64,000 nucleotides of DNA from Microbacterium murale (GTDB lineage Bacteria > Actinomycetota > Actinomycetes > Actinomycetales > Microbacteriaceae), in NCBI RefSeq assembly GCF_014635185.1, contig NZ_BMCM01000001.1, positions 62,001 to 126,000 of the forward strand. Reading direction: 5' to 3'. Each line of letters begins with the position of its first letter. Positions within the stretch are counted from its first letter, which is position 1. This document shows, piece by piece, positions 9,014 to 52,147 of this stretch. Below the pieces are notes generated by a model that ran no database searches, had not been told where the DNA came from, and was given only the letters and a program-made list of their open reading frames with translations. The translations under genes were made by a program, and so were the position numbers.

Positions 9014-9067
9014 GCAAGCCACCCTACTCAGTGGTGGTCGCGCCCCCACGGCGCCGACGCGCTTGCG

Positions 9068-10441: not shown

Positions 10442-10478
10442 GAGTGTCCTTTCGGATGCTGCGGCGATCGATTCACGA

Positions 10479-11540: not shown

Positions 11541-11560
11541 GGTTCCACCCTACCTGGGGC

Positions 11561-12304
11561 TCACGCCTGCTTCGTCGCCGGCTCAGTCGACGCCGCCGGC
11601 TTTCTCGCACGGTGCAGCGCGACGATGCCGAACGAGAGGTTGCGGTACGCGACGTTCGTCCAACCGGCCTCTCGAATCCAGGCCGAGAGCTGCTTCTGAT
11701 CCGGCCAGTCCTTGATCGACTCGTTCAGGTAGTCGTACGCATCGGCATTCGTACCAGCCACTCGCGCGACCCTTGGCAGCACCTGCGCGTTGTAGAAGCG
11801 ATAGAGACTGCGGAACGCCTTGCCAGGAGGCGTCGAGAACTCGTTGATGACGAGGCGTCCGCCGGGCTTCGTGACGCGCAGCAGTTCGGCGAGCGCCTTC
11901 TTGGGCTGCTGCACGTTGCGCAGTCCGTACGACATCGTCACGGCGTCGAACTCGTCGTCGGCGAACGGCAGATTCATGGCGTCGGCCTCGACGAACGACA
12001 GGTTCGGCAGATGGCCGTGGCGACGCTTTCCCTCGGCCAGCATGCCGGGCGAGAAGTCGGCGGCGACGACGTCGGCTCCGCTCATGGCGAGGGATGCCGA
12101 TGAGGATGCCGTGCCGGCGGCGAGATCGAGGATCCGCTCGCCGCGCTTCGGGGCGACCGCGCGGGTCGTTGCCGCGCGCCAGAACGCGTCGTTGCCGAAC
12201 GTCATGACGGTGTTCGTGCGGTCGTAGCCTGCGGCGACCTGGTCGAACATGCCGCTGACGCGCTGGGGATCCTTGCCGAGGTCGGCGCGTTTGGACTGAG
12301 TCAC
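11561..12304 (-). CDS. menG: Demethylmenaquinone methyltransferase
   Basis: 247 residues. This is a class I SAM-dependent methyltransferase with motif I I-L-D-L-A-A-G-T-A at about 58-66 and the UbiE/MenG signature Y-D-R-T-N-T-V-M-T-F-G near residue 27 and M-S-Y-G-L-R-N-V near 125. It performs the last methylation of menaquinone. Ubiquinone genes are not expected in an actinobacterium, so MenG is preferred over UbiE. The ATG at 12304 overlaps the stop of the DUF402 gene by 4 bp (ATGA), implying coupled translation and a two-gene unit. Confidence 0.94.
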   Translation of the reverse strand: MTQSKRADLGKDPQRVSGMFDQVAAGYDRTNTVMTFGNDAFWRAATTRAVAPKRGERILDLAAGTASSSASLAMSGADVVAADFSPGMLAEGKRRHGHLPNLSFVEADAMNLPFADDEFDAVTMSYGLRNVQQPKKALAELLRVTKPGGRLVINEFSTPPGKAFRSLYRFYNAQVLPRVARVAGTNADAYDYLNESIKDWPDQKQLSAWIREAGWTNVAYRNLSFGIVALHRARKPAASTEPATKQA

Positions 12305-12885
12305 GCGTCCAGTCTAGGTCGGTCGAGGTGCAGCGCTTCCAGGCGGTCGAGCCATACGTCGGCGGTCGCGTCGTCGAATGGGGCGACCTGCGCGCGCACC
12401 TGCGCCTCGAGGTCGAGGGTGAGTTCTTCGAGGTGCGCCATGATGTCTGCCGGGTAGCCGTATCGGATGCTGTGCTCCGCCCACTCGTCCCGATCGTCGA
12501 CCCATGTGCCGCTCGGACCGTCGGCAGGATCCCGGTCGCGCTCGAGGCGGATGACATCGAGATCCATGTCGATGCCGGTGGCGAGCAGTGGATCGTCCGC
12601 CCAGTGGATGTCCCAGCCGAGGTCGATGTAGACGCGCATGCTGAAGGGGTGGTCTCGGTTCACCGTGAGAGCGAAGTCGCCCGATGCCGGGACGAGGGTG
12701 ACGTTCGAGGCTTCGGCGTGGAACTGCGCGCCGGGTCGGATGCTGTGCCATCCGATCGGCTGTCCGATCCAGTCACCCCACTCGTCGGTCCCCAGATACA
12801 CGCACTCGTGCCGCCAGTGCGTCGATCCGTCCCACTTGCGCCATTGGAAGATCATCTCGGCACCGGGTTCGGGTCGCGCGCTCAT
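12301..12885 (-). CDS. DUF402 family protein
   Basis: 194 residues with the DUF402 fold signature: W-K-(W)-D-G-S-T-H-W-R near the N-terminus, F-A-L-T-V-N-R near 70, a Y-I-D-L-G-W-D-I strand, and the acidic metal-site segment D-M-D-L-D-V near 105. DUF402 proteins are predicted metal-dependent phosphatases or ribonucleases of the FomD/Ntdp type; the substrate here is unknown. It starts at ATG 12885, 6 nt downstream of TAGAGT (12892-12897), a leaderless promoter. It is transcribed with menG, divergently from menF with only 42 bp between starts. Confidence 0.85.
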   Translation of the reverse strand: MSARPEPGAEMIFQWRKWDGSTHWRHECVYLGTDEWGDWIGQPIGWHSIRPGAQFHAEASNVTLVPASGDFALTVNRDHPFSMRVYIDLGWDIHWADDPLLATGIDMDLDVIRLERDRDPADGPSGTWVDDRDEWAEHSIRYGYPADIMAHLEELTLDLEAQVRAQVAPFDDATADVWLDRLEALHLDRPRLDA

Positions 12886-12891
12886 GCATTC

Positions 12892-12921
12892 ACTCTATGC
12901 ACCGGATCGGACAACTATTCT
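12892..12921. promoter_or_regulatory. Divergent leaderless promoters for DUF402-menG and menF
   Basis: TAGAGT on the minus strand (12892-12897) lies 6 nt before the DUF402 ATG, and TATTCT on the plus strand (12916-12921) lies 6 nt before the menF GTG. The two -10 boxes are only 18 bp apart, so the promoters overlap. Pattern match only. Confidence 0.6.
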
Positions 12922-12927
12922 GGGGAG

Positions 12928-14214
12928 GTGAGCAGAAGCCTGATCGTGCAGACCCGTGAGATCGATCCGGTGGAAGACCTTCTGGCGTACGCCCACCCCT
13001 CGACGCCCCTGGCCTGGCTTCGTCGCGGCGACGGCATCGTCGCCGTCGGCGATGCGATGCCGACCTTCATCCGTATCCCGGCAGGCACAGCATCCATGCG
13101 TTCAGCGATGATGGCCGATGCCTGGCGCGAGTTGGCTGACGCGGCGGAGATCGATGATCCGATGAAGCTCCCGGGTACCGGGCTGGTCGGCTTCGGCGCG
13201 CTCACGTTCGATGAGGACTCCGCCTCCGACAGCGTTCTCATCGTGCCGTCCGTCATCCTCGGCAAGCGCAAGGGCCGAGGATGGATCACGCGCATCGCGC
13301 CCGCGGGCGATGACCTCCCCCAGGACCGACCGGACGCCACGCTCGAGCGGCGCGCCTACGGGGCGCACTGGGCTGGCACCCTTGGCCCCGGACAGCAGAG
13401 CCCGAACGGCTATCAGGCATCGATCCGCGCCGCGCTCGGCCGCATCGGGGCAGGCGAGATCAGCAAGGTCGTGCTCGCGCGCGATCTCGCCGGCACTGTG
13501 CCCGGCGGCAGTGATCTTCGCCGGCTCGTGCGAGAACTCTCTTCGGGGTACCCCGACACATGGACTTTCGCCGTAGACGGTCTGATCGGCGCGAGCCCCG
13601 AGACGCTCGTGACCGTGCAGGACGGCACGGTGACCGCGCGCGTCCTGGCCGGGACGATCGGCCGTGGAGCGGATGCCGATGAGGACAACGTCGTCTCCGC
13701 ATCGCTGTCGTCCAGCGTGAAGGACATCGACGAGCACGAGTACGCCGTGCAGAGCGTGCTGATCTCGCTGCGCCCGCACACCAGGGCGCTGGCCTCGAGC
13801 GAGCAGCCGTTCCTGCTGAAGCTGCCCAACCTGTTCCATCTCGCCACCGATGTCGAGGGCGAGCTGTCCGACGGCGCGTCCGCGCTTGACCTGGTCGGCG
13901 CGCTGCATCCGACTGCCGCTGTCGCCGGCACCCCGACGAAGGCGGCGATCGCGGCGATCCGCGAGCTCGAGCCGTTCGACCGCGGTCGCTATGCGGGTCC
14001 GGTCGGCTGGGTAGATGGCAACGGCAACGGCGAGTGGGCGATCGCGCTGCGCTGCGCACAGTTCGAGGTCGGATCCCTGCGCGGCAGGGACGACGACGAG
14101 ACGCTCGGCGTCACCGCGTATGCGGGAGCGGGCATCGTCGCCGCGAGCAACCCGGAGACGGAGCTGCTCGAGACCAGGGTGAAGTTCCGGCCGTTGGTCG
14201 ACGCACTCGCCTGA
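12928..14214 (+). CDS. menF: Isochorismate synthase MenF
   Basis: 428 residues. The C-terminal two thirds form the chorismate-binding domain: K-V-V-L-A-R-D near residue 180, S-P-E-T-L-V near 225, R-V-L-A-G-T-I-G-R-G near 243, and L-H-P-T-A-A-V-A-G-T-P near 330 with G-R-Y-A-G-P-V-G-W near 355. It converts chorismate to isochorismate, the first committed step of menaquinone synthesis. The GTG at 12928 is chosen because TATTCT sits exactly 6 nt upstream. A GGAGGTGA sequence overlaps this codon and could instead serve a start at 12946. An entC-type siderophore role is possible but less likely given menD and menG nearby. Confidence 0.9.
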   Translation: MSRSLIVQTREIDPVEDLLAYAHPSTPLAWLRRGDGIVAVGDAMPTFIRIPAGTASMRSAMMADAWRELADAAEIDDPMKLPGTGLVGFGALTFDEDSASDSVLIVPSVILGKRKGRGWITRIAPAGDDLPQDRPDATLERRAYGAHWAGTLGPGQQSPNGYQASIRAALGRIGAGEISKVVLARDLAGTVPGGSDLRRLVRELSSGYPDTWTFAVDGLIGASPETLVTVQDGTVTARVLAGTIGRGADADEDNVVSASLSSSVKDIDEHEYAVQSVLISLRPHTRALASSEQPFLLKLPNLFHLATDVEGELSDGASALDLVGALHPTAAVAGTPTKAAIAAIRELEPFDRGRYAGPVGWVDGNGNGEWAIALRCAQFEVGSLRGRDDDETLGVTAYAGAGIVAASNPETELLETRVKFRPLVDALA

Positions 14215-14215
14215 G

Positions 14216-15070
14216 TCAGCTGGCCGCCAGGCGCTTCTTCTCCGCTTCGATGTCGAAGTCGGCCGCCGGCCACTGCGGGTCGATGTCCACCAGCGCGCCC
14301 AGTAGCAGCTCCTGCACGGCCAGTCGTGCGTACCACTTGCTGTTCGCCGGCACGACGTGCCACGGAGCAGCCTCGGTCGACGTGCGATCGAAGACGGTCT
14401 GATAGGCCGCCATGTAGTCGGGCCAGAGGAGGCGCTCGTCGACGTCGCCGGGGTTGTACTTCCAGTACTTGTCCGGGCGCTCGAGGCGCTCCATCAGTCG
14501 CTCCTTCTGCTCCTCCGGCGAGATGTGCAGCATCACCTTGACGATGCGGGTGCCGGATGCCGCGACCTGGGCCTCGAATTCGTTGATCGCACCGAAACGG
14601 CGTTCGATCTCGTCGGCGGAGGCGAGCTCGCGAACCTTTCCGATCAGCACGTCCTCATACTGCGATCGATCGAAGACCCCGATGAAACCAGGCTCCGGCA
14701 GACGCTGCTCGACGCGCCAGAGGAAGTCGTGCGACAGCTCTTCGTCGGTCGGCGCCTTGAACGCCGTGAGCGCGATGCCCTGCGGGTCGACGCCGCCGAC
14801 GACGTGCCGGACGATCCCGCCCTTGCCTGCGGAGTCCATCGCCTGCAGCACCAGCAGCACCGCATCGGTCGTGCCGCCCGAACGGCTCTCCGCGTACAGC
14901 CGTTCCTGCAGCTCTCCCAGCGACTCGATGCCGGCGGCAAGATCTGCCTTGCCGCTCTTCTTGTCGCCGCCATAGCCGGGATGGCTGTCAGGGTCGACAT
15001 CTGCCAGGCGGAACCCTTCGCCCACGCGCAGGATCTCGGATGCGTCGCCTGACCAGCCTCGTGTGCTCAT
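14216..15070 (-). CDS. ppk2: Polyphosphate kinase 2 family phosphotransferase
   Basis: 284 residues, single PPK2 domain. The Walker A segment Q-A-M-D-S-A-G-K-G-G is at about 76-85, the Walker B-like F-D-R-S-Q-Y-E-D at 133-140, and the lid/basic motif S-P-E-E-Q-K-E-R-L-M-E-R near 193. Such enzymes use polyphosphate to phosphorylate nucleoside mono- or diphosphates. Class cannot be fixed with certainty by eye, though the length and D-K-Y-W-K-Y-N-P motif are common among class III AMP/ADP enzymes. It converges with menF with 1 bp between stops. The ATG at 15070 leads a monocistronic gene. Confidence 0.9.
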   Translation of the reverse strand: MSTRGWSGDASEILRVGEGFRLADVDPDSHPGYGGDKKSGKADLAAGIESLGELQERLYAESRSGGTTDAVLLVLQAMDSAGKGGIVRHVVGGVDPQGIALTAFKAPTDEELSHDFLWRVEQRLPEPGFIGVFDRSQYEDVLIGKVRELASADEIERRFGAINEFEAQVAASGTRIVKVMLHISPEEQKERLMERLERPDKYWKYNPGDVDERLLWPDYMAAYQTVFDRTSTEAAPWHVVPANSKWYARLAVQELLLGALVDIDPQWPAADFDIEAEKKRLAAS

Positions 15071-15094
15071 GCGTACATCCTGCCCGGTTCGGGC

Positions 15095-16774
15095 TCAGCG
15101 CGGCAGCGGCACCTCGATGAGCTGTCGGCCGCCGACCGGCGTGGTGAGCGCCTGGTCGAGCGCAGCGCGCGTCGTGATCCGCTGATACGTCCAGCCGTAC
15201 GCGAGCGCGAGCTGCTCGAGTCGGGTCGTGTGCGGGGTGTAGAAGGCACGGTCGAGGTCTTCGCGCGGCGCGGATGACGCCACCTCCAGCGAATCGAAGA
15301 TCGTGCCGCCGCCGTCGTTGCCGACGACGACCTGGATGCGCGGTTCCTGCTCATCCGGGGGCAGCAGCAGTGCACCCACGTCGTGCAGGAATGCGAGGTC
15401 TCCGAGCAGCACCCTGGTGACGCCGGCAGCGCCTTCGGCCTGACTGGCGAGAGCGATGCCCATGGCGGTGGAGATCGTGCCGTCGATGCCGGCAAGGCCG
15501 CGGTTGGAGTGCACCGGCACCTTCTTGCCGCCGAGCACGGCGTCTGCGACCCGCACGAGCCTCGAGGATCCGAACATCAGGCGATCGTGCGGCCACGTCG
15601 CGCGCCACACGGCATCGACGAGCAGTTCACGATCGAGTGGACGCCGCACCGCCTCGAGTTCAGCGCGCACCGCATCTCGGCGTTCGGCGAAGTCGGTCGA
15701 CGCGAGCCCCTCCTGATCCGGCGCGGCCTCGCTGAGATCGACGACGGATGCCGCGGATGCCTCCATCCACGCCCCCATCCAGAAACGATCGGCCTCACCG
15801 GGGGCGACCGTGACCGATGCCACCGCCACCGTGCGGCCGTTGAGATTCAGCTCTTCGCCACCGGAGCGGACTGCGACGACCTGGACATCGTCGCGGCGCA
15901 GCAGCGCGGTCACCTCACGGCTGAGCGTCGGATGCCCGAGCACCACCGCGCGCTGGATCCGACCGCCGAGGATGTCGTCGCGAAGCATCTCGCGGTAGCC
16001 GTGCACGATGTAGCGGCCGTAGCGCGCTCCGCTCACGATCTCGGCGATCAGGGGCCATGTGCCGGCGTGGGCGATCTCCTCAGCCAGGGCACCGGCATCC
16101 GCGCCTGCGATCACGACCGTGCGCAGGCCGCGAGTCAGCAGGAAGGGCTCCCCCGGCTCCCCCTTCGGCGCCGATCCCTGGATCACCGGGGATTCCTCCC
16201 CATGCCCAGCGGACAACGGCTCGCGCGACGGGAGGTTCAGGTGCACCGGCCCTGCAACACCCGGCAGAGCCGAGGGCGCAGCATCCGCCCCCATCGCCGC
16301 AGCGACGGCCTTCTCGGCGAGGCCGTCCCACGAACCGTCTCCGGGAACCGGCGCATCGAGCGACAGACGGACGAACGGGTCGAACAGTCCGGGCTGGATC
16401 GTCGCCTGGTTCGCTCCGACGCCGCGCAGCTCCGGCGGGCGGTCGGCCGTGAGCAACAGCAGCGGGACGCCCGAGTGGAACGCCTCCATGGCCGCAGGCA
16501 GCAGATTCGCCGCCGCAGTGCCCGATGTGCAGATGACGGCCGCGGGAACTCGGGTCTCGCGCGAGAGGCCGAGCGCGGTGAAACCGGCGACTCGTTCGTC
16601 GATGCGCACGTGCACGCGCATGGCGCCCTGCCTCGCGAGGCGTGTGGCGGCGAGCGCAAGCGCCTGCGAGCGCGAACCAGGCGCGATCACGATGTCGCGG
16701 ATGCCGTGGGCGATGAGTTCAGCGAGGAGGGATGCCGCGGCATCCGACGCAGGCGACGCAGGCGACGCCGTCAC
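15095..16774 (-). CDS. menD: MenD, SEPHCHC synthase
   Basis: 559 residues, thiamine-diphosphate enzyme. The N-terminal Pyr domain has I-V-I-A-P-G-S-R-S-Q-A-L (30-41) and V-I-C-T-S-G-T-A-A-A-N-L-L-P-A near 83, the MenD signature. The C-terminal PP domain has G-D-L-A-F-L-H-D followed about 25 residues later by N-D-G-G-G, the ThDP/Mg binding motif. It condenses isochorismate with 2-oxoglutarate in menaquinone synthesis. The ATG at 16774 overlaps the stop of the PLDc-N gene by 4 bp. MenF and the other men genes are close but not co-transcribed. Confidence 0.94.
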   Translation of the reverse strand: MTASPASPASDAAASLLAELIAHGIRDIVIAPGSRSQALALAATRLARQGAMRVHVRIDERVAGFTALGLSRETRVPAAVICTSGTAAANLLPAAMEAFHSGVPLLLLTADRPPELRGVGANQATIQPGLFDPFVRLSLDAPVPGDGSWDGLAEKAVAAAMGADAAPSALPGVAGPVHLNLPSREPLSAGHGEESPVIQGSAPKGEPGEPFLLTRGLRTVVIAGADAGALAEEIAHAGTWPLIAEIVSGARYGRYIVHGYREMLRDDILGGRIQRAVVLGHPTLSREVTALLRRDDVQVVAVRSGGEELNLNGRTVAVASVTVAPGEADRFWMGAWMEASAASVVDLSEAAPDQEGLASTDFAERRDAVRAELEAVRRPLDRELLVDAVWRATWPHDRLMFGSSRLVRVADAVLGGKKVPVHSNRGLAGIDGTISTAMGIALASQAEGAAGVTRVLLGDLAFLHDVGALLLPPDEQEPRIQVVVGNDGGGTIFDSLEVASSAPREDLDRAFYTPHTTRLEQLALAYGWTYQRITTRAALDQALTTPVGGRQLIEVPLPR

Positions 16775-42905: not shown

Positions 42906-43973
42906 GTGACCACTCTGCATGACCCCGCGATCCGGGGATTCGCGTCGGACAACTACTCCGGCATCCACCCCGAGATCCTCGCGGCGATCGCCGCAGCGAA
43001 TGACGGCCACCAGATCGCCTACGGCGAAGACGCCTACAGCGAGCGACTGCAGGAGGTCTTCCGGGGCCACCTCGGCGACGACATCCAGGCGTTCCCGGTC
43101 TTCAACGGCACCGGCGCGAACGTCGTCGGCCTGCAGTCGATGCTTCCGCGCTGGGGCGCCGTGATCACGGCATCCACTGCTCACATCAACGTCGACGAGG
43201 GCGGAGCGCCAGAGCGGATCGGCGGGATGAAGCTGCTCACCGTGCCGACCGACGACGGCAAGCTGACCCCCGAACTCGTCGACCGAGAGGCCTGGGGCTG
43301 GGGCGACGAGCACAGGGCGCAGCCGCTGGTCGTGTCGATCACGCAGTCCACTGAGCTCGGTACACTCTATTCCGCATCCGAGATCCGGGCGCTCGCCGAT
43401 CACGCGCACGGTCACGGCATGCACCTGCACATGGACGGTGCACGCATCTCCAATGCCGCCGCAGCCCTCGATGCGCCCCTGCGTGCATTCACCCGCGACG
43501 CCGGTGTCGACGTGCTCAGCTTCGGCGGCACCAAGAACGGTGCGATGCTCGGCGAGGCGATCGTGGTGCTGAACCCCGAAGCATCCTCCGGTCTGATCTA
43601 CGGTCGCAAATACAACATGCAGCTGTCGTCGAAGATGCGCTTCGTCTCCGCGCAGCTCATCGCACTGCTCGAAGGCGACCTGTGGCTGCGCAACGCCAGG
43701 CACTCGAACGCGATGGCAGCCAGATTGCGGGCCGGCATCGAGGCGGGGCTGGATGCCGGGAGCATCCGGGGCGTCGAATTCACCCAGGAGACGCAGTCGA
43801 ACGGCGTCTTCGCGAAGCTTCCAGATGGCGTTGCCGACCAGCTGCGCGAGTCGTTCCGCTTCTACGACTGGGATGCCGCCCGCAACGAGGTGCGCTGGAT
43901 GTGCAGCTTCGACACGCAGGAGGCCGACGTGGACGCGTTCGTCGCGGAGCTCGGGCGCCTGACCACCGCGTGA
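42906..43973 (+). CDS. Low-specificity threonine aldolase (beta-eliminating lyase family)
   Basis: 355 residues, fold-type I PLP enzyme. S-D-N-Y-S-G-I-H-P near residue 14, H-M-D-G-A-R-I near 175 and S-F-G-G-T-K-N with PLP lysine K210 identify the family. It cleaves L-threonine or allo-threonine to glycine and acetaldehyde; related beta-hydroxy amino acids are possible. The start GTG 42906 lies 6 nt after TAGGCT (42894-42899), leaderless. It converges on the sugar-acid transporter gene. Confidence 0.9.
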   Translation: MTTLHDPAIRGFASDNYSGIHPEILAAIAAANDGHQIAYGEDAYSERLQEVFRGHLGDDIQAFPVFNGTGANVVGLQSMLPRWGAVITASTAHINVDEGGAPERIGGMKLLTVPTDDGKLTPELVDREAWGWGDEHRAQPLVVSITQSTELGTLYSASEIRALADHAHGHGMHLHMDGARISNAAAALDAPLRAFTRDAGVDVLSFGGTKNGAMLGEAIVVLNPEASSGLIYGRKYNMQLSSKMRFVSAQLIALLEGDLWLRNARHSNAMAARLRAGIEAGLDAGSIRGVEFTQETQSNGVFAKLPDGVADQLRESFRFYDWDAARNEVRWMCSFDTQEADVDAFVAELGRLTTA

Positions 43974-43997: not shown

Positions 43998-45374
43998 TCA
44001 GTGCCCGGGTGTCGGTGCCTTCGCATCGAGGAGGGCGTCCGCCTTCGCGCTGAAGAAGCGGGTCGCCCACATCATGGCGGCGGCGAGGAACGCGAACACT
44101 CCGAGTGACACCACTCCCCACGCACCGCTCTCGGTCGGTACCGCCTCGTTGAAGGCGGTGCGCATGATGGGTGCCACGAAGCCACCCAGGTTGCCGAGAG
44201 AGTTGATCAGTCCGATGCCGGCGGCCGCCGCTGCTCCGGTGAGGAACGAGGTCGGGAACGACCACGTGATCGGGCCGGCCGCGAGGAACGCGGAGACTGC
44301 GATCGTGATCGCGAGCAGGCCGATGAGTCCTTGACCGTTCGCTCCGGCCCAGGCCGACACGAGGATCGCGACGCCGGTGATGACGAAGAACCACGCACCC
44401 CACTCGCGGCGACGTTTGATGGTGTCCGCATGCTTGCCTGCGTAGTAGCAGGCGAACAGGCCCACCGCCCACGGGATTGCGGAGACGAGGCCGACCTGCC
44501 AGCCGACGTCCTGCCCGATGAGGCCGGAGACCTGCTGCGGCAGGTAGAAGGTGGTGCCGTACACCGCGATCTGGAGGCAGAAGTAGATGATGGTGAAGTA
44601 CCACACCTTCCAGTTCACCAACGCTGCGCCGATGCCCCGCGGCCCGTCGGTCTCCTTGACGCCGTCCTCGTGCTCCATGACGACCTTCAGCGCATGCTTC
44701 TCCTCATCGGTGAGGAACTTCGCCTTCTGCGGCGAATCCACCAGGAAGTAGAAGGCCGCGACACCGGCGACGACCGCGAGCATGCCCTCCACGAAGAACA
44801 TCACCTGCCATCCGGCCCACGGAGTGAGCTGCTCGCCGAAGCTGATCAGCCCGCCGGACAGGGGCGCACCGAGCATCTGCGAGAACGGCTGGGCGAGGTA
44901 GAACAGGGCGAACATCTGCACGCGCCGCTTGTTGGGGAACCACTGCGACAGGAACATGATCACGCCGGGGAAGAGCCCCGCCTCGGTCACACCGAGCAGG
45001 AAGCGCAGCACGATGAACATCGTCTCGCCGTTGACGAACGCGAACGCGGCCGCGACGATGCCCCATGTGATCGCGATGCGCGCGAGCCAGAATCTGGCGC
45101 CGAACTTGTTCAGCAGCAGGTTCGAGGGGATCTCGAAGAGCGCATAGCCGATGAAGAAGATGCCGGCGCCCAGGGCGTATGCCCCGGCGGAGAGGCCGCG
45201 GTCGGCCTCCATCGCAGCTTCGGCGAAGCCGACATTGGTGCGGTCGAGGAAGGCGACGAAGTACAGGATGATGAGCATCGGCATCAGGCGGAAGGTCGCC
45301 TTCTTGATGCCGCTGGCGAGATGAGGGCTCGCGAGCAGGGACGGCGCCGTGGCGCCGGAGACGGATTCGGACAC
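43998..45374 (-). CDS. MFS anion:cation symporter, sugar-acid type
   Basis: 458 residues with 12 transmembrane helices, matching the ACS family (galactonate/glucarate/tartrate-type symporters): Y-F-V-A-F-L-D-R-T-N-V-G-F-A near residue 38, E-I-P-S-N-L-L-L-N-K-F-G-A-R near 82, E-A-G-L-F-P-G-V-I near 135. It imports an organic or sugar acid with H+ or Na+. The start GTG 45374 has an AGGAGA site. It closes a minus-strand operon with a 33-residue membrane protein, an SDR, a 3-hydroxy dehydrogenase and a TIM-barrel enzyme. An acid substrate fits those enzymes. Confidence 0.9.
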   Translation of the reverse strand: MSESVSGATAPSLLASPHLASGIKKATFRLMPMLIILYFVAFLDRTNVGFAEAAMEADRGLSAGAYALGAGIFFIGYALFEIPSNLLLNKFGARFWLARIAITWGIVAAAFAFVNGETMFIVLRFLLGVTEAGLFPGVIMFLSQWFPNKRRVQMFALFYLAQPFSQMLGAPLSGGLISFGEQLTPWAGWQVMFFVEGMLAVVAGVAAFYFLVDSPQKAKFLTDEEKHALKVVMEHEDGVKETDGPRGIGAALVNWKVWYFTIIYFCLQIAVYGTTFYLPQQVSGLIGQDVGWQVGLVSAIPWAVGLFACYYAGKHADTIKRRREWGAWFFVITGVAILVSAWAGANGQGLIGLLAITIAVSAFLAAGPITWSFPTSFLTGAAAAAGIGLINSLGNLGGFVAPIMRTAFNEAVPTESGAWGVVSLGVFAFLAAAMMWATRFFSAKADALLDAKAPTPGH

Positions 45375-45415
45375 GAGGGAACTCTCCTTTGAGTGAGGTT
45401 TGCGTGGGAGGGGCG

Positions 45416-45517
45416 TCAGCTGCCCAGTGCGGGAATGATCATGAAGAGGCCGGCGGCCACGCAGATCACGCCGAGCACCAGGAAGGCGATGCGGCTCTTG
45501 GACCAGGAACGGGTCAT
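45416..45517 (-). CDS. 33-residue single-helix membrane protein in the sugar-acid operon
   Basis: A 33-codon frame (ATG 45517, TGA 45416-45418) with an AAAGGA ribosome site about 7 nt upstream. It has a basic amphipathic start (T-R-S-W-S-K-S-R) and one hydrophobic helix rich in Val, Leu, Ala and Gly ending in a short Pro/Gly tail. It lies between the SDR stop-side and the transporter gene, 11 bp after the SDR stop and 41 bp before the transporter start. The position suggests a small partner of the MFS transporter. No family recognised; the frame and ribosome site support expression. Confidence 0.65.
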   Translation of the reverse strand: MTRSWSKSRIAFLVLGVICVAAGLFMIIPALGS

Positions 45518-45528
45518 GGTGAGTCCTT

Positions 45529-46299
45529 TCAGTGCATGTAGAGGCCGCCGTCGACGTTCAGGGTCTGGCCCGTCACGAATCCGGCGTTCTCGCTGATCAG
45601 GAAGGCGACGGCTGCAGCAATGTCCGTCGGGGTACCGATGCGCGGGAGCACGCCGTCGGCCGCCATCGCGGTCTTGCGCTCCTCGGTGAGAGTGCCGCCC
45701 ATGATGTCGGTGTCGATCGGCCCTGGCGAGATGACGTTCGCGGTCACGCCGAGCGGACCGAGCTCGCGGGCGATCGATCGCATGAGGCCGATGACGCCTG
45801 CCTTCGAGGCCGAGTACGGCGTCTTCGAGAACGTGCCGCCGCCGCGCTGGGCGGAGACGGACGAGATGCCGACGATGCGACCCACGCCGTTCTCCGCAAG
45901 GGTGCGGGCGACGCGCTGAGTGATCCAGTGCACGCCGTCGAGGTTGATCGACTCGACGCGATGCCACTCCTCCGGTGTGACCTCGAGGTACGGAACCGGC
46001 GAGGACACACCGGCGAAGTTCACGACGGCGACGATCTGGGGCAGTTGCTCCTCGAGGGCGTCGACGGCCGCGACCGCCTGCTCGCGATCGGCGACGTTCG
46101 CGCCGACGCCGACGGCGCTCACGCCGTGAGCCTGTGCGACCTCGGCAGCCGTCTGCGCCGCGGCCTCCGCGTCGACGTCGATGATGCCGACGTTCCAGCC
46201 GAGTTCAGCAAGATGGAATGCCGTGGCACGGCCGATCCCGCGAGGGCTCGCGGCACCGGTCAGGATGACGGTTCGTTCGGTGGGGAATGTCGTGGACAT
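45529..46299 (-). CDS. SDR-family dehydrogenase of the sugar-acid operon
   Basis: 256 residues, classical SDR: cofactor motif T-G-A-A-S-P-R-G-I-G (15-24), N-F-A-G near 94, S-S near 145, Y-S-A-S-K near 160, and C-terminal G-Q-T-L-N-V-D-G-G. It oxidises or reduces a hydroxyl of a polyol, sugar or sugar acid with NAD(P). Within the operon it could form the acid from its aldehyde/polyol precursor or oxidise a different carbon. ATG 46299 has a GAGAGGAA site formed by a tandem duplication (46311-46350). Substrate not known. Confidence 0.9.
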   Translation of the reverse strand: MSTTFPTERTVILTGAASPRGIGRATAFHLAELGWNVGIIDVDAEAAAQTAAEVAQAHGVSAVGVGANVADREQAVAAVDALEEQLPQIVAVVNFAGVSSPVPYLEVTPEEWHRVESINLDGVHWITQRVARTLAENGVGRIVGISSVSAQRGGGTFSKTPYSASKAGVIGLMRSIARELGPLGVTANVISPGPIDTDIMGGTLTEERKTAMAADGVLPRIGTPTDIAAAVAFLISENAGFVTGQTLNVDGGLYMH

Positions 46300-46310
46300 C
46301 GCCGTTCCTC

Positions 46311-46350
46311 TCAGTTCGAGGGGTGGCTGGTCAGTTCGAGGGGTGGATGG
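46311..46350. repeat. 20-bp tandem duplication at a gene junction
   Basis: Two 20-bp units, 46311-46330 and 46331-46350, differ at one base. The downstream unit holds the last codons and stop of the 3-hydroxy dehydrogenase; the second copy forms the spacer and start of the SDR ribosome site. A recent local duplication is likely. Confidence 0.85.
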
Positions 46351-47299
46351 GTGCGGGGCCGAGCTCGTCCATGATCTTCTTGATCGCGACGTACGCCTTG
46401 TTGCGGTACGCGATGAGCTCGGGGGTGCGCTCGGCGGGGACATCGAGGAAACCGCCACCGGATTTCGTGCCGAGCTTTCCGACCGAGACGAGGTCGGAGA
46501 GCGCCTTCGGCGTGGCGAAACGCTCGGGGAATTCGGTCTGCAGCGAGGCGTAGCAGAACGAGTACACGTCGAGTCCTGCCATGTCCGCGATCGCGAACGG
46601 GCCGAACACCGGCAGGCGGAATCCGAAGGTCGTGCGCACGATCGTGTCGATGTCCTCGGCAGTGGCGACGCCTTCTTCCACGAGCTGGGTCGCCTCGTGG
46701 AACAGCGCGTACTGCAGGCGGTTGAGCACGAAGCCCGTCGCATCCTTGACGCGGGCGGTCTCCTTGCCGGTCGCCGCCACGATCGCCTCGACCACGGGCA
46801 GGATGCCTTCGTCGGTCGCCCCGTGCGGGATCAGCTCGACGCCCGGGATGAAGGGCGCAGGGTTGGAGAAGTGCACGCCGAGGAAGCGCTCGGGGTTCAC
46901 GACGGCTTCGGCGAGCTTGCCGATCAGGATGGTCGAGGTGTTGCTGCCGATGATCGCTCCCGGCGCTGCCGCCTCGGAGATGCGTCGCAGCGTGGCGTGC
47001 TTGATCTCGATCTTCTCCGGCACGGCCTCTTCGATGAAGGAGGCGCCGGTGACGGCATCCTCGATCGTCGCCGCCGTGACGCGCTCCGCGATGATCTCGG
47101 CTGCGCCCGCCGGGAACAGATCATCCGCGACGAACTGCTCGGCCTCTGCGATGAGGCGGTCGCGGTTCTGCTTCGCGATCTCGATGTCGACATCCGCGAT
47201 GCGCACATCAGCGCCGGACATCGCGAGGCACTGAGCGATGCCGCCGCCCATGTATCCGCTGCCGATCACGGCGTAGATGGGGCGTTCCTGAGTGGTCAT
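46331..47299 (-). CDS. 3-hydroxyacyl-CoA-dehydrogenase-fold enzyme, lambda-crystallin-like
   Basis: 322 residues. Rossmann motif G-S-G-Y-M-G-G-G (13-20), S119-N-T-S-T and the catalytic H143-F-S-N-P-A-P-F show the HADH superfamily. The P-G-V-E-L-I-P motif and the absence of a fatty-acid context favour the L-gulonate 3-dehydrogenase/lambda-crystallin branch, which oxidises the C3 hydroxyl of sugar acids to a beta-keto acid. That chemistry fits an acid transporter and a downstream decarboxylase. Ordinary 3-hydroxybutyryl-CoA dehydrogenase is the main alternative. ATG 47299. Confidence 0.88.
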   Translation of the reverse strand: MTTQERPIYAVIGSGYMGGGIAQCLAMSGADVRIADVDIEIAKQNRDRLIAEAEQFVADDLFPAGAAEIIAERVTAATIEDAVTGASFIEEAVPEKIEIKHATLRRISEAAAPGAIIGSNTSTILIGKLAEAVVNPERFLGVHFSNPAPFIPGVELIPHGATDEGILPVVEAIVAATGKETARVKDATGFVLNRLQYALFHEATQLVEEGVATAEDIDTIVRTTFGFRLPVFGPFAIADMAGLDVYSFCYASLQTEFPERFATPKALSDLVSVGKLGTKSGGGFLDVPAERTPELIAYRNKAYVAIKKIMDELGPAPIHPSN

Positions 47300-47347
47300 T
47301 GTCGTCTCCTGGTCGAATATCGGATGCGTCGAATTGCGGTTTGCAGA

Positions 47348-48295
47348 TCAGGCGTCTGCGGGCTCTGGCAGCAGCGTGCGCAGGTAATCGCGGTTGGTCG
47401 CGCAGACGCCGAGGCTGTCGCCGCCGTACTGCTCCATCAGGAACGGGCCGTTGAAGCCGAGTTCGATGGCCCGCGCGACCATGTCGCGGTAGTTGATCAG
47501 GCCGAGCTCCATGCTGGTGGGCACGGCGGTCTGCCAGCTGCCGTCGCCCGCCTCATCGCGGATGTAGTTCTTGACGTGCCAGTAGTTCGCGTACGGGAGC
47601 GTCTTCTCGTGCATCTCGCGCCAGTCCTCGATCGGACGGTGCAGACGAACGAGGTTGCCGATGTCGGGGTTGAGGCCGACGTTGTCCAAGCCGATCTCCT
47701 CGATCAGCCGTACGGCGCTGTCCGCGGTGCCGAGGTAGGTGTCCTCGTACATCTCCAGCGCCATCGGCAGTCCGACGGATGCTGCGTGCTCACCGAGTTC
47801 GCGCAGCCGCTTCACGGCGAGCGCCCGCGTCTCGGCATCGTCAGGATCGACGGAGCCCTGCGCGGTCCAGAACCACAGGGCTTCGCGCTGCGCCGGGGTG
47901 AAGGGCTGGTGGAGGCCCGTCGAGAACACCTGCATGCCCAGCTCGGCCGCGGCGTCGATGGCCTGGTGCGCATAAGCGAGGTTCTGCTCGCCCTTGCCTG
48001 GCTCGATGATGCTCTGGCGCTGCACGTGCACCGAGACGAGCTGCACCTGGTGTGATGCGGCGATCGCCTTGAGCTCGTCCCGCCGCTCGGGCGTGAGGTC
48101 GGACGGTCGGATGTGGCTGTCAGCGATCTCGATCGCGGTGAAGCCGAGTCGGGACACCCGGCGGAAGACGCCGTCCCATGTTTCGGCCGATGCGTCGTGC
48201 AGGCGGGTGCCATCGGCGGCGACGGGAGCGATCCCGTGCATGCAGGCGGCGATGGGCCAGTTCTCGCTGGTGAGAGGGTGCGGCGTTGCGGTCAT
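47348..48295 (-). CDS. Xylose-isomerase-like TIM-barrel enzyme
   Basis: 315 residues, the sugar-phosphate isomerase/epimerase fold. The divalent-metal ligands are visible as E181, D211, H240 and E288. Substrate-facing residues include H90 and H129. The family contains isomerases, epimerases and dehydratases, and also decarboxylases of beta-keto sugar acids. In this operon I infer decarboxylation of the 3-keto acid to a tetrulose, or alternatively epimerisation/isomerisation. It is the first gene of the operon; the TCCTATAGGA operator lies 50 bp upstream. ATG 48295 is chosen over an upstream extension that runs through the operator. Confidence 0.85.
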   Translation of the reverse strand: MTATPHPLTSENWPIAACMHGIAPVAADGTRLHDASAETWDGVFRRVSRLGFTAIEIADSHIRPSDLTPERRDELKAIAASHQVQLVSVHVQRQSIIEPGKGEQNLAYAHQAIDAAAELGMQVFSTGLHQPFTPAQREALWFWTAQGSVDPDDAETRALAVKRLRELGEHAASVGLPMALEMYEDTYLGTADSAVRLIEEIGLDNVGLNPDIGNLVRLHRPIEDWREMHEKTLPYANYWHVKNYIRDEAGDGSWQTAVPTSMELGLINYRDMVARAIELGFNGPFLMEQYGGDSLGVCATNRDYLRTLLPEPADA

Positions 48296-48345
48296 GACGA
48301 CTCCGTTGACGTGTTCATCCCGGGAAAGGGATCGAATCTTCATAG

Positions 48346-48373
48346 ATCCTATAGGAAATAGGAGAAGAGTCAA
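48346..48373 (-). promoter_or_regulatory. Promoter and GntR operator of the transporter/dehydrogenase operon
   Basis: TTGACT (48368-48373) and TAGGAT (48346-48351) on the minus strand are 16 nt apart. The operator ATCCTATAGGAAAT (48346-48359, palindromic core TCCTATAGGA) overlaps the -10 box. An identical 14-mer stands before the kinase operon at 52134-52147. Confidence 0.7.
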
Positions 48374-48401
48374 GGCCGCCTCATGGCCGGCGAAGAGGGC
48401 G

Positions 48402-49124
48402 TCAGCCGCGTTCGAGATCCAGCGAACGCGCGCGCACCTGCTCGATGTGACGTCGCATCAGACGCTCCGGAGCATCCGCATCGCCACTGGCGAAGGCGTC
48501 CGCGATCGCCTCGTGCTCGGCGATGGCTTCGCGTACATCGGTCACGCCGTGCAGCACGGATTGCCGCATCCGGTGCAGCTGCGCACCGAGAGAATCCGAC
48601 ATGTCGATCAGATAGCGATTGCCGCAGTGCCGCAGCACCACGCGGTGGAAGTCCGCGTCGGCGGCGAAGTACGCCGTGGTCGCCTCGAGATCCGTGCTTC
48701 CCGATCGCATCGCCGTGATCACCCGCTCGCCGATGCGGCGGTGCTCCTCCTCGGCTGCGCTGAGTTCAGCGAGCATCACGGGGGTCGCCGGGGTCGCGAG
48801 ACGGGCCGCGTGAGATTCCAGCATGATGCGTGCGTCGAACAGTTCGCGCAGCTGCTCGGCGCCGATCGGCGGTGCCACCCGGTAGCCCTTCAGCGCCTCA
48901 CGGGTCACGAGCCCGGTGCGCTCGAGCTGCACCATCGCCTCACGCACGGGGGTGGGCGAGACGGAGAGCTGTCGGGCGATGGTGTCGATCGAGAGTCGCG
49001 ACCCTGGAGCCGCCTCACCGCTGAGCAGGAGCTGCAGGATGCGGTCGTAGACGTGATCGCGCAGGCCTCGGCGTTCGATCGTCGAGTCCAGCCCGCGCAG
49101 GCCGCCATCAAGGTCTGTGACCAT
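48402..49124 (-). CDS. GntR/FCD-family regulator of the tetrulose pathway
   Basis: 240 residues. The N-terminal winged helix (R-D-H-V-Y-D-R-I near 22; L-S-V-S-P-T-P-V-R-E-A-M near 53) and the C-terminal FCD all-helical domain with metal-type ligands (D-x-x-F-H near 163, H-x-x-I near 203, H near 228) mark the FadR/FCD subfamily, which senses sugar acids. Encoded just after the triosephosphate-isomerase-like gene and before the operator of the other operon, it likely represses both through TCCTATAGGA. ATG 49124 has a GAGGGAG site. Confidence 0.92.
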   Translation of the reverse strand: MVTDLDGGLRGLDSTIERRGLRDHVYDRILQLLLSGEAAPGSRLSIDTIARQLSVSPTPVREAMVQLERTGLVTREALKGYRVAPPIGAEQLRELFDARIMLESHAARLATPATPVMLAELSAAEEEHRRIGERVITAMRSGSTDLEATTAYFAADADFHRVVLRHCGNRYLIDMSDSLGAQLHRMRQSVLHGVTDVREAIAEHEAIADAFASGDADAPERLMRRHIEQVRARSLDLERG

Positions 49125-49151
49125 GTCTTCTCTCCCTCGCGCGTCGGCGCG

Positions 49152-49892
49152 TCACGCCGACAGTGCGCCCACTTCATCGAGGATGTCACGAACAGCGGAA
49201 CTCTCGTGCACGAAGCGCCCGAGGAACAGCCCGTCGACGCTGTCCGCGATCTGCGTCAGCAGCCCTGGCCTCGCGCTTCCCCCGTAGATCACAGACGTCT
49301 GTCCTGGCACGTCCGTCAGGTGTCGGCGTAGTACGGCGCACACGCCGCGGATGTGATCCGGATGCGCCGGCTCTGGCGCACCGATCGCCCAGAGCGGTTC
49401 GTACGCGATGACGAGATCCCCCACGATGCCCGCCGCGGATGCCGCGCTGAGACCCGAGCGGATCTGACGGATGCAGACCTCCGCGGCGTCGGCCGGCTCG
49501 AGCCGCTCTTCCTCGCCGACGCACAGGATCGGGGTGATGCCGTTGCGCACGGCCGCATGGACTTTGGCCGCCACCACCTCATCCGTGTCGCCGAACATCC
49601 GGCGCCGTTCGGCGTGGCCCACTTCGACGAACCGGCATCCCAGCTCCGCCAGCACCGCGGCCGACACCTCGCCGGTGAACGCCCCGGCATCGTCGGTCGC
49701 GACATCCTGCGCGCCGACGGCGAGATCGCCGGCAGCATCCAGGCATGCCGGAATCGACGGGAACTGCGGGATGACGAGGGCGGTGACCGCTTCTCTCACC
49801 GGGTGCCCTGCGAGGATCGCCGCGACTTCCTCCACCCATGCCACCGTCCTGGCATGGGAGAAGTACATCTTCAGGCTCACTCCGACGATCAT
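49152..49892 (-). CDS. lerI: Triosephosphate-isomerase paralogue, likely L-erythrulose-1-phosphate isomerase
   Basis: 246 residues, TIM fold with catalytic K8, H93 and E165 (A-Y-E-P-L-W). The canonical N-x-K at the start is S-L-K, a change common in the tetrulose-phosphate paralogues rather than glycolytic TpiA. It should interconvert L-erythrulose 1-phosphate and D-erythrulose 4-phosphate. Next to the RpiB paralogue and the DhaK-like kinase, it matches the gene trio known for erythrulose catabolism in Mycobacterium smegmatis. ATG 49892 follows the RpiB gene by 14 bp. A glycolytic role cannot be fully excluded. Confidence 0.82.
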   Translation of the reverse strand: MIVGVSLKMYFSHARTVAWVEEVAAILAGHPVREAVTALVIPQFPSIPACLDAAGDLAVGAQDVATDDAGAFTGEVSAAVLAELGCRFVEVGHAERRRMFGDTDEVVAAKVHAAVRNGITPILCVGEEERLEPADAAEVCIRQIRSGLSAASAAGIVGDLVIAYEPLWAIGAPEPAHPDHIRGVCAVLRRHLTDVPGQTSVIYGGSARPGLLTQIADSVDGLFLGRFVHESSAVRDILDEVGALSA

Positions 49893-49906
49893 GCGGTGAT
49901 CGATCC

Positions 49907-50362
49907 TCAGGAGCCTTCGTAGGCGCAGATCTCCTGCACCTTCTCGGCGGAGGCGCTGGTCGGGTCGAAGGTGTAGGTCAGCCACTCTGATGCCAGGCGC
50001 CGCGCCAGCTCGATGCCGATGACCCGCTGGCCCATGCAGAGCACCTGCGCGTCGTTGGAGAGCACTGAGCGCTCGACGCTGAAGGAGTCGTGCGCGGTGA
50101 CCGCGCGGATGCCGCTGACCTTGTTCGCCGCGATCGCGACGCCGAGGCCGGTGCCGCAGATCAGGATCGCGCGATCGGCATCGCCGGCGGCGACCTTCTC
50201 GGCCGCGCTCGTCGCGATCCGCGGGTAGTTGGTGTGCCCGTCCGCGTCGACGCCGACATCCACGACGGACTCGACGAGCGGGTTGGCGACCAGATCAGCC
50301 TTGATGCGTTCCTTGTAGTCGTAGCCCGCGTCGTCCGAGCCGATAACCAGTCGAAGTGCCAT
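49907..50362 (-). CDS. derI: RpiB-family isomerase, likely D-erythrulose-4-phosphate isomerase
   Basis: 151 residues of the LacAB/RpiB family: S-D-D-A-G (9-13, D in place of the ribose-5-phosphate isomerase H), C69[12 protein letters not shown] near 69-81, and R near 97. The DDAG variant marks tetrose/tetrulose-phosphate relatives. Predicted reaction: D-erythrulose 4-phosphate to D-erythrose 4-phosphate, entering the pentose phosphate pathway. ATG 50362 is 1 bp from the kinase stop; ATG 50371 is an alternative. Family is seen, substrate inferred from the neighbours. Confidence 0.85.
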
Positions 50363-50363
50363 G

Positions 50364-52085
50364 TCAGTCATTCCCCTTCAGGGTGTCGAGAACCGTGCGT
50401 GCGATGAGTGCGAACGAGACCGCGCCGGGGTCGGGTGTGCCGATGCTCTTGTCGCCGTGCGCGCGGGCGCGGCCGAGCTTCGCCGTGAGGTCGGACGTGG
50501 CCTTGGCAGCCGCGTCGGCGGTGCCGGCGGCGTCGGTCCAGGCATCGACGAGCTCGGCGCCAGCGTCGACCAGCTCCGCGAGCCGATCGGCGAACGGGAC
50601 GATCGCGTCGATCATGGTCTTGTCGCCGACCGTGGCCTTGCCGAAGGACATCACGGCGTCCTTCATGGCGGTGATGCCGGCGGCGACGCGCGCGGTGTCG
50701 ACGTCGTCGTCATCGCCCAGCGTGGCGCCGAGTGCGACGAGCATCTCGCCCCAGATCGCCCCGGATGTGCCGCCGCCCTTGTCGGCCCAGGCGTCACCGG
50801 CCTGCTGCAGAGTCGTGCGGGCGCCCGCTCCGTCGGCCACGACTCCGGATGCTGCGGCAGAGGCCGCGCAGCTTCCACGCTGCATCCCGATCCCGTGATC
50901 GCCGTCACCGGCGATGCGGTCGATTCTCCCGAGCTCGTCCGCTTCGGCATCCAGCATCGCGGCCATCGCGCTCAGCGCGCGATCGATCACGGCCGCCGCC
51001 CGCTGGGAACTGTCGCTCGCCGGGCCGATGACGACCTCTTCCTCGACGACCTCGACCGCGTCGACGGCGATGCGCCCCTCGACCGCACCGCGCCGGAAGG
51101 CCGCCGTGTCGCACGATGCATGCCAGAGCGGCTCGAGCTCGTCGTCGAGCCACAGCAGCGTGAGCGAGACGCCCGCCATGTCGAAGCTCGTGCAGAACTC
51201 CCCCACCTCGGGCGAGACCACGACGAGGCCGGCCTCGGCGAGAAGCCGATCGACTTCTGCGTAGACGACGTACAGCTCCTCGTACTTGACGCTGCCGAGT
51301 CCGTTCAGGATCGGCACGACCCGCGCGCCTTCCTGGTCGATCCCGTCCGGGATCTCCGCCAGGAGCGAGGTCACGAACAGCTCGGCCAGACCCGCTGCCG
51401 TCGGCACGTCGATCTCGTCGATGCCCGGTTCGCCGTGGATGCCCAGGCCGACCGCCATCCGCCCCTCCGGCACGGTGAACAGCGGCTCGTCTGCCCCCGG
51501 CAGCGTGCAGCCGCCAAAGGCCACGCCGAGAGAGCGCGTGCGCGAGTTGGAGAGCGCGGCGAGCCGCTCGACGTCGTCGAGATCGAGGCCGGCCTCGGCC
51601 GCTGCCCCAGCGACCTTGAACACGACGAGGTCCCCGGCGATGCCGCGGCGCTTCTCATGCTCGCCCGCCGGAGCACTGGAGATGTCGTCGGTCACGACGA
51701 CGGTCCGGCAGTCGATACCCGAGGCACGCATGCGCTCCTGCGCCTGGGTGAAGTGCAGCACGTCGCCCGCGTAGTTGCCGTAGCTCAGCAGTACGCCTCG
51801 TCCTTCATGCGCCGCGGTGGCGACGGTGTGCACCTGGTGCGCGGAGGGCGAGGCGAACAGGTTGCCCATCGCCGCGCCGTGCGCGAGTCCTGGACCGACG
51901 AGTCCCGCGAACGCGGGATAGTGTCCGCTCCCGCCACCGATCACGACCGATACGGTCGGCTCAGCACCGCGGGTGGAACGCACGACGCCTCCGTTCACCG
52001 GGCGCACCCACCGGGCGGATGCCGCGGCGAAGCCGGCGGCAGACTCGGCGGCGAAGTCATCCGGATCGTTGAACAAGCGCGTCAT
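50364..52085 (-). CDS. lerK: DhaK-DhaL fusion kinase, likely L-erythrulose kinase
   Basis: 573 residues: DhaK domain (about 1-330) with [12 protein letters not shown] and the substrate-anchoring H217 in G-I-H-G-E-P-G, then DhaL domain (about 365-573) with [11 protein letters not shown] binding Mg-ATP. ATP-dependent dihydroxyacetone-type kinases phosphorylate ketotrioses or ketotetroses; beside RpiB and TIM paralogues a tetrulose is the best guess. ATG 52085 has a GAGGAG site; an upstream extension crosses the operator. It is the first gene of a four-gene unit ending in gntR. Confidence 0.88.
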
Positions 52086-52133: not shown

Positions 52134-52147
52134 ATCCTATAGGAAAT
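52134..52147. promoter_or_regulatory. GntR operator of the kinase operon
   Basis: ATCCTATAGGAAAT is identical to the site at 48346-48359 and lies 49 bp upstream of the kinase start. Its core TCCTATAGGA is a perfect 10-bp palindrome. It marks the second member of the regulon. Confidence 0.72.

Follow-up and report, generated by a model that had tools for sequence, protein, structure and literature searches.

The window analysed here is a stretch of 64,000 nucleotides from Microbacterium murale (contig NZ_BMCM01000001.1, positions 62,001 to 126,000), and its positions 43998-52085 hold nine genes, all on the minus strand, in two operons that we suggest form one regulon for the breakdown of a sugar acid. 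Operon B has the order DhaKL-RpiB-TPI (triosephosphate isomerase)-GntR with spacings of -8 (an 8-nt overlap), 14 and 27 nt; operon A has the order TIMB-3HCDH-SDR-33-residue protein-MFS with spacings of 48, 31, 11 and 41 nt; and 106 nt lie between the end of GntR and the start of TIMB. TIMB is our label for the PF01261 TIM-barrel protein of operon A, and HAD denotes the 3HCDH dehydrogenase gene. Start codons were picked by eye and families were assigned with Pfam and NCBIfam. An earlier sequence-only reading had described nine genes in two operons, and this content is borne out, as every open reading frame (ORF) is present and the Pfam and NCBIfam assignments agree with its family names. The features are as follows.

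50364..52085, minus strand: fused DhaK-DhaL kinase, LerK-type candidate (tetrulose kinase; Pfam Dak1 and Dak2)
49907..50371, minus strand: RpiB paralogue, DerI-type candidate (D-erythrulose 4-phosphate isomerase; PF02502)
49152..49892, minus strand: TPI paralogue, LerI-type candidate (L-erythrulose 1-phosphate isomerase; PF00121)
48402..49124, minus strand: GntR/FCD regulator, presumed to bind the common palindrome (PF00392 and PF07729)
47348..48295, minus strand: PF01261 TIM-barrel metalloenzyme TIMB, candidate 3-oxo-sugar-acid decarboxylase
46331..47299, minus strand: 3HCDH-fold NAD dehydrogenase, candidate 3-hydroxy-sugar-acid dehydrogenase (PF02737 and PF00725)
45529..46299, minus strand: SDR dehydrogenase (PF13561)
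45416..45517, minus strand: 33-residue single-span membrane microprotein (small hydrophobic ORF)
43998..45374, minus strand: MFS symporter of sugar-acid type (PF07690)
52135..52144, palindrome: operator candidate TCCTATAGGA before operon B
48347..48356, palindrome: operator candidate TCCTATAGGA before operon A
48346..48373, minus strand: sigma-70-like promoter TTGACT-16-TAGGAT, second hexamer overlapping the operator core

Convergent with the MFS gene and 24 nt away lies a beta-eliminating lyase/threonine aldolase-like gene (42906-43973, plus strand; judged by eye from its translation).

Conservation of the two operons

Relatives of TIMB were gathered as an 80-locus set, which is the best 80 of 530 and hence the closest relatives by construction, and as a total of 124 loci that adds a 40-locus set (on average more distant) and four plasmid loci; at least three genomes are counted twice in the 124 (L043/L151, L038/L090 and L040/L112). 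Neighbours were counted with tblastn, since the ORF caller missed genes. In the 80-locus set the search reached as far as 10 kb to either side of TIMB at E 1e-10 and an identity threshold of 34-55% depending on the gene, so that matches under the thresholds are left out, and some contigs end inside the stretch. In the 124 loci a gene could lie anywhere in the stretch, at E 1e-20 and 45% coverage, with weaker matches left out. The most similar copies of TIMB, among the best 80 of the 530 relatives, are from Microbacterium. Within the 80-locus set TIMB has as neighbours, beyond what chance would bring, HAD (65), SDR (64), MFS (54), DhaKL (68), RpiB (55), TPI (62) and GntR (73). The two operons, which the sequence-only reading had joined in one pathway, do occur together in these genomes. 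More widely, TIMB is matched at E 1e-40 in 77 of 297 genomes of the order, and 95 plasmid records, chiefly from Sinorhizobium, give a tblastn match.

A common operator candidate before both operons

The palindrome TCCTATAGGA stands before both operons. Extended by one A/T on each side (WTCCTATAGGAW), it occurs at exactly two places in the genome, before operons A and B; TTTCCTATAGGA with at most one mismatch likewise finds two places in the 3,897,570 bases, both of them operon fronts. A search of 24 genomes, in which G249 and G308 are the same genome, found WTCCTATAGGAW at two places in 17, where each place matches on both strands, at one place in five (G025, G041, G042, G100 and G310) and at none in two (G299 and G302). 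In the 80-locus set the 250 nt in front of TIMB contain the exact core TCCTATAGGA in 62 of 80 cases and those in front of DhaKL in 43 of 67, and by the same measure it precedes none of the other genes there (HAD 0/65, GntR 0/73, RpiB 0/54, TPI 0/62, SDR 0/64, MFS 0/54). As background, it was present in 86 of 7440 segments of 250 nt drawn at random from the loci searched, a count that takes in the true sites. In G251 the operons lie on separate contigs (C12 and C24) with a site on each, that on C24 preceding DhaKL-RpiB-TPI-GntR. Nineteen of 20 genomes that give no TIMB match at E 1e-40 have no operator site, and around the single site in G111 none of the eight window proteins is matched within 1.5 kb.

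That one GntR regulator governs both operons had been an inference of the earlier reading; it is now supported because the same palindrome stands before both, and the distribution of the site across the genome, together with its retention across genera, adds to that support. We consider a single GntR/FCD regulon covering both operons to be strongly supported by these sequence patterns, with the GntR/FCD protein as the presumed binder. The second promoter hexamer overlaps the site before TIMB, which would fit repression; the promoter pattern by itself was found once against 0.8 expected in shuffled sequence, no better than chance.

The kinase and isomerase trio

The genome holds three TPI, three RpiB and three Dak2 matches. 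A second kinase-RpiB-TPI trio lies on contig 6 (L180, G000:C6:250001-270000, 7580-16368) beside a Zn alcohol dehydrogenase, a DUF2291 protein and a ribose-type ABC transporter, a layout that we take to be a tetritol catabolism cluster. The window kinase, RpiB and TPI are 59, 71 and 49% identical to the members of this trio, whereas RpiB and TPI share 28% and 37%, respectively, with the housekeeping copies. Identities to an apionate-type cluster of Erwinia are 60% for the kinase, 49% for TPI, 45% for RpiB and 39% for the MFS protein.

A quick tree of TPI proteins, which includes 28 TIMB-associated copies from 30 hand-picked loci, sets 35 rows, the window copy among them, apart from E. coli TpiA and the housekeeping TPI on a branch with support of 99. 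The window copy falls in a 26-row group with 22 TIMB-associated copies, the tetritol copy and the Erwinia/Pantoea copies; six other TIMB-associated copies group with those of a Rhizobium OiaX cluster and Shinella. The model NF000722 gives 217 bits for the housekeeping TPI and 173 for the window copy, and was therefore dropped as a marker of LerI. On the DerI model NF051858, whose name ends in Rhiz, the window RpiB reaches 140 bits, below the cut-off of 240; a Rhizobium copy (T136) reaches 256 and this genome's housekeeping copy 69. Judged by these comparisons, the window trio is not housekeeping and is paralogous to the tetritol-type trio. The proposal of a LerK/LerI/DerI-type trio gains support from the identities to the tetritol-type copies and from the TPI tree, and the three proteins are candidates for these roles. 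PMC10733421 describes what LerI and DerI catalyse.

Exchange of the dehydrogenase

The nearest solved relative of the 3HCDH protein is 4om8, a 5-formyl-3-hydroxy-2-methylpyridine-4-carboxylate 5-dehydrogenase (E 3.5e-45); the lambda-crystallin homologue 3f3s follows at E 2.4e-29. "Lambda-crystallin-like", as the enzyme had been called, is right for the superfamily, which it shares with L-gulonate 3-dehydrogenase (lambda-crystallin), and loose as a label. S122, H143, E155 and N193, which we take to be the catalytic residues, are at least 97% conserved in 90 rows. The SDR protein shows the same level of conservation at N119, S147, Y162 and K166 (80 rows), and it is a candidate for handling a second stereoisomer or for an aldose 1-dehydrogenase.

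Among the 124 loci, 3HCDH is found in 93, a PdxA-like gene in 20 and an LtnD-like gene in 31, with at least one of the three in 118. The first two share a locus only once, against 15 if they were independent. Two Agrococcus loci illustrate the swap behind the same core: L115 carries HAD-SDR-MFS, and L151 carries PdxA with tripartite tricarboxylate transporter genes. All three families oxidise hydroxy acids, which makes oxidation of an acid ahead of the TIMB step probable. The hydroxy-acid oxidation step of the earlier proposal is supported in that three families fill the same place.

Four plasmid loci of Rhizobiaceae and Paracoccus (L156-L159) combine TIMB with a DhaK kinase, a PdxA-like gene and a tripartite tricarboxylate transporter, with no TPI or RpiB match in the stretch.

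The TIM-barrel protein

All 16 aligned sequences, the window protein with 15 homologues, keep E181, D211, H240 and E288 of TIMB unchanged, which bears out the E-D-H-E set named from the sequence; the fold suggests that they bind metal. In a quick tree that took in seven of the genome's ten other PF01261 matches, and in which long branches meet, the 16 TIMB rows form a clade of their own (support 99), and Hyi, OtnI and one paralogue from the same genome form another (97). TIMB clusters with none of E. coli Hyi, OtnI and UlaE, and the separate clades speak against a hydroxypyruvate isomerase or an OtnI-type 2-oxo-tetronate isomerase; the tight clustering with hydroxypyruvate isomerase or an epimerase that would have refuted the sequence-only reading did not appear. 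The TIM barrel of the Erwinia apionate-type cluster, which we assume from its context to be OiaC, has no significant pairwise similarity to TIMB (BLASTP E 0.17), and this value together with the separate clades tells against TIMB as OiaC (3-oxo-isoapionate decarboxylase).

The closest structure is PDB 5TNV, a xylose isomerase-like TIM barrel of Mycobacterium smegmatis whose title names no function. TIMB matches it over the full length and counts as a member of the 5TNV family of PF01261; a fold search gave no other close relative among the matches listed, and a search for the word 5TNV in the library used found no paper. The comparisons support TIMB as a PF01261 family of its own. We regard it as a candidate decarboxylase within a gene set that probably converts a sugar acid to CO2 and a four-carbon sugar.

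Transporter and microprotein

The best NCBIfam model for the MFS protein is TIGR00893, a D-galactonate transporter (271 bits, below the cut-off of 395). A hydrophobic ORF of 24-60 residues (more than 60% A, V, L, I, F, M, G, C and W) occupies 43 of 62 gaps between SDR and MFS; the 19 gaps that have none comprise 16 from Curtobacterium by title, one from Microbacteriaceae bacterium PS02333 and two others. W5, R9, L13 and G16 of the microprotein are invariant in 20 rows. Its profile matched 18 of 80 family genomes, ten strongly (E 1e-8 or better, the genome studied here included) and eight weakly (E 1e-4 or worse). All ten strong matches lie directly upstream of this MFS gene (66-100% identical), one of them at a locus with no SDR match; none of the window proteins adjoins any of the eight weak ones. 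Its place and conservation make the 33-residue protein look like a companion of the transporter.

Comparison with known pathways

A route from D-apionate to L-erythrulose via ApnO, OiaC, LerK, LerI and DerI was reportedly described by Carter et al. in 2018. Plasmids of Erwinia (L160 8013-14430) and Pantoea (L187 3230-9673) carry clusters of rpiB, MFS, DhaK, TPI-like, TIM-barrel and phosphogluconate dehydrogenase C-terminal domain genes, annotated only generically, which probably serve apionate catabolism and which we take to be the ApnO/OiaC route from D-apionate to L-erythrulose. The logic resembles that suggested for the window: an acid is oxidised, the 3-oxo acid is decarboxylated to L-erythrulose, and a kinase and two isomerases follow. 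The window differs in having 3HCDH in place of an ApnO-like dehydrogenase, a TIM barrel dissimilar to that of the apionate-type cluster, and a GntR/FCD protein where that cluster has a sugar-binding regulator. The earlier parallel with apionate catabolism holds for the logic, the kinase and TPI, and fails for TIMB. A Rhizobium cluster contains OiaX (NF042437, 782 bits over a cut-off of 700), TPI, a DerI above the cut-off of its model (256 against 240 bits) and a kinase below the OiaK cut-off (466 of 700); the genes of R. etli are arranged in the same way. PMC11747546 uses the names D-apionate oxidoisomerase and 3-oxoisoapionate kinase/decarboxylase.

Tetritol catabolism by EltD, LerK, LerI and DerI, described from M. 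smegmatis, shares paralogues of the kinase, TPI and RpiB with the window; a tetritol enters there, whereas a sugar acid that loses CO2 would enter here. The four-carbon acid sugar pathways (LtnD, OtnK, OtnI, OtnC) have a link to a minority of loci, in which LtnD-like and DUF1537-type kinase genes are neighbours of the module; the window operons contain neither gene, and TIMB lies outside the Hyi/OtnI clade.

A proposed pathway and its alternatives

We consider it likely that the two operons act as one regulon, whose products take up a sugar acid and break it down via a four-carbon ketose to erythrose 4-phosphate. The MFS symporter, with the microprotein, would import the acid, and the 3HCDH enzyme, the SDR enzyme or both would oxidise its C3 hydroxyl to give a beta-keto acid. 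TIMB, with a divalent metal held by E181, D211, H240 and E288, would decarboxylate this to a tetrulose, probably L-erythrulose, which the DhaK-DhaL kinase would phosphorylate. The TPI-like enzyme would then turn L-erythrulose 1-phosphate into D-erythrulose 4-phosphate, and the RpiB-like enzyme would convert the latter into erythrose 4-phosphate, which feeds the pentose phosphate pathway. The GntR/FCD protein would repress both operons through TCCTATAGGA over the promoters until an intermediate released it. Gene content, conservation, the joint operator, the paralogy of the trio and the exchange of dehydrogenases are computed observations; what we infer is each reaction, the sequence in which the reactions run, the sign of the regulation and the nature of the acid. 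We regard the conserved, jointly controlled catabolic module as real and the mechanism as probable.

Several observations weigh against this pathway. The operator core is rarer in the 40-locus set (TIMB 13/40, DhaKL 7/33; there it also precedes GntR in 2/25). Six of the 124 loci have none of the three dehydrogenase families, and some of the LtnD-like matches that were counted lie about 9 kb from TIMB. LtnD, annotated in E. coli as a putative L-threonate dehydrogenase, would oxidise at C2, which weakens the argument for C3 at LtnD-type loci. The window RpiB passes the NCBIfam model for ribose-5-phosphate isomerase (TIGR02133, 203 bits, cut-off 168), from which it takes its name there, and falls short of that for DerI. 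Finally, in a set of 14 relatives chosen partly for a missing TPI near TIMB, eight (G167, G133, G245, G137, G263, G284, G031 and G047) have a single, housekeeping-like TPI that is 36-41% identical to the window copy. The route as drawn through L-erythrulose is therefore impossible in those genomes, and D-erythrulose or another exit is likely there. The pathway put forward by the sequence-only reading is thus supported in part: the co-occurrence, joint control, trio, oxidation step and status of TIMB as its own family have support, and an L-erythrulose product is not universal in the family.

Decarboxylation could also be spontaneous or the work of the dehydrogenase, which would give TIMB another role. 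An alternative that we think unlikely makes TIMB an epimerase or isomerase of a tetrulose or keto acid: the beta-keto acid would lose CO2 alone or on the dehydrogenase, and TIMB would swap the erythrulose enantiomers or shift the carbonyl. TIMB groups neither with Hyi/OtnI nor with UlaE, in a tree with long branches. Genomes that lack LerI would gain nothing from an epimerase that supplies this enzyme, yet they keep TIMB, and in apionate-type clusters a TIM barrel lies between the TPI and ApnO-like genes, where we take OiaC to decarboxylate.

It is improbable that the module is a disguised pathway for D-apionate or isoapionate, in which the keto acid would be 3-oxo-isoapionate and TIMB a counterpart of OiaC with no sequence similarity to it. 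The kinase, TPI and MFS genes are as in the Erwinia/Pantoea clusters with their ApnO-like and TIM-barrel genes, and OiaX/kinase/TPI/DerI clusters do occur in Rhizobium; against this, an OiaC-like match is present in none of the 124 loci at E 1e-20 and 45% coverage, and an ApnO-like match in one, at the edge of L128. The tertiary C3 alcohol of apionate would, as we understand it, need an oxidoisomerase and not a simple 3HCDH or PdxA enzyme.

The proposal that the acid is a C4 tetronate, oxidised at C3 and decarboxylated to dihydroxyacetone, with DhaK-DhaL and TPI as ordinary dihydroxyacetone kinase and triosephosphate isomerase, would fit the LtnD-like and DUF1537-type kinase genes (31/124 and 19/124 loci), the four alphaproteobacterial plasmid loci with TIMB, kinase, PdxA-like and tripartite tricarboxylate transporter genes and no TPI or RpiB match in the stretch, and the eight of 14 genomes with a housekeeping-like TPI only, but we consider it highly improbable: it leaves jobless an RpiB paralogue that is near TIMB in 55 of 80 loci, TPI and RpiB of the window stand near their tetritol-type counterparts and far from the housekeeping copies, and the eight scanned window proteins include neither an OtnC-type class II aldolase nor a second PF01261 barrel. 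A plain dihydroxyacetone kinase and TPI route was rejected, as it leaves RpiB unexplained.

Taken further, the preferred reading of a sugar-acid regulon that leads to erythrose 4-phosphate suggests a bolder version, which we offer tentatively and would not yet bet on. The module would represent a widespread, undescribed pentonic-acid route in which any of three unlike dehydrogenases oxidises C3 and a 5TNV-family decarboxylase yields erythrulose. Cassettes for uptake and oxidation (3HCDH-SDR-microprotein-MFS, PdxA with the tripartite tricarboxylate transporter, SDR-LtnD) would be swapped behind a fixed core and operator, and the window lineage would use L-arabinonate and a symporter that needs a dedicated 33-residue microprotein.

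Clues to the substrate

The acid would be an aldonate with a secondary C3 hydroxyl, and our best single guess, a thin lead, is L-arabinonate, whose C4 has the configuration of C3 in L-erythrulose. In Microbacterium sorbitolivorans (L083, 4906-15779; TIMB 83% identical to that of the window), one same-strand run joins an FGGY kinase, a class II aldolase, AraA, TIMB, the dehydrogenase, a GH51 arabinofuranosidase and an ALO-type oxidase; this genome has no WTCCTATAGGAW site. L055 has GH51 nearby and an ALO-type oxidase on the other strand. The lead is weakened by the rarity of these neighbours among the 124 loci (AraA, FGGY kinase and aldolase one each, GH51 three, ALO two) and by the L055 genome (G167), which has no LerI-type TPI. 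GH39 (six of the 124 loci), GH3 (five), a GntP permease (five) and Amidohydro_2 proteins, possible lactonases (L048 and L133), indicate no single sugar, and the ApnO-like piece at the edge of L128 led nowhere as a clue. Six TIMB modules (L066, L070, L071, L072, L139 and L147) lie near genes for a GH39 glycosidase, an aldo/keto reductase and an ABC sugar transporter.

Implications

A tetrulose route from a sugar acid is known in kind; as far as our literature searches tell, the decarboxylase candidate, the dehydrogenase exchange and the microprotein are new. Among the papers listed, from a library that lacks most subscription journals, no title or abstract opening described this pathway. If the proposal is correct, a TIM-barrel family whose solved structure has no function in its title would gain one, and sugar acids would have a further, oxidative-decarboxylative route to the pentose phosphate pathway. 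The proposal would also yield predictions that are sharp and cheap: the operator, the class of inducer and the microprotein of the transporter. An answer for TIMB would annotate many genomes together (77 of 297 in the order, and 95 plasmid records).

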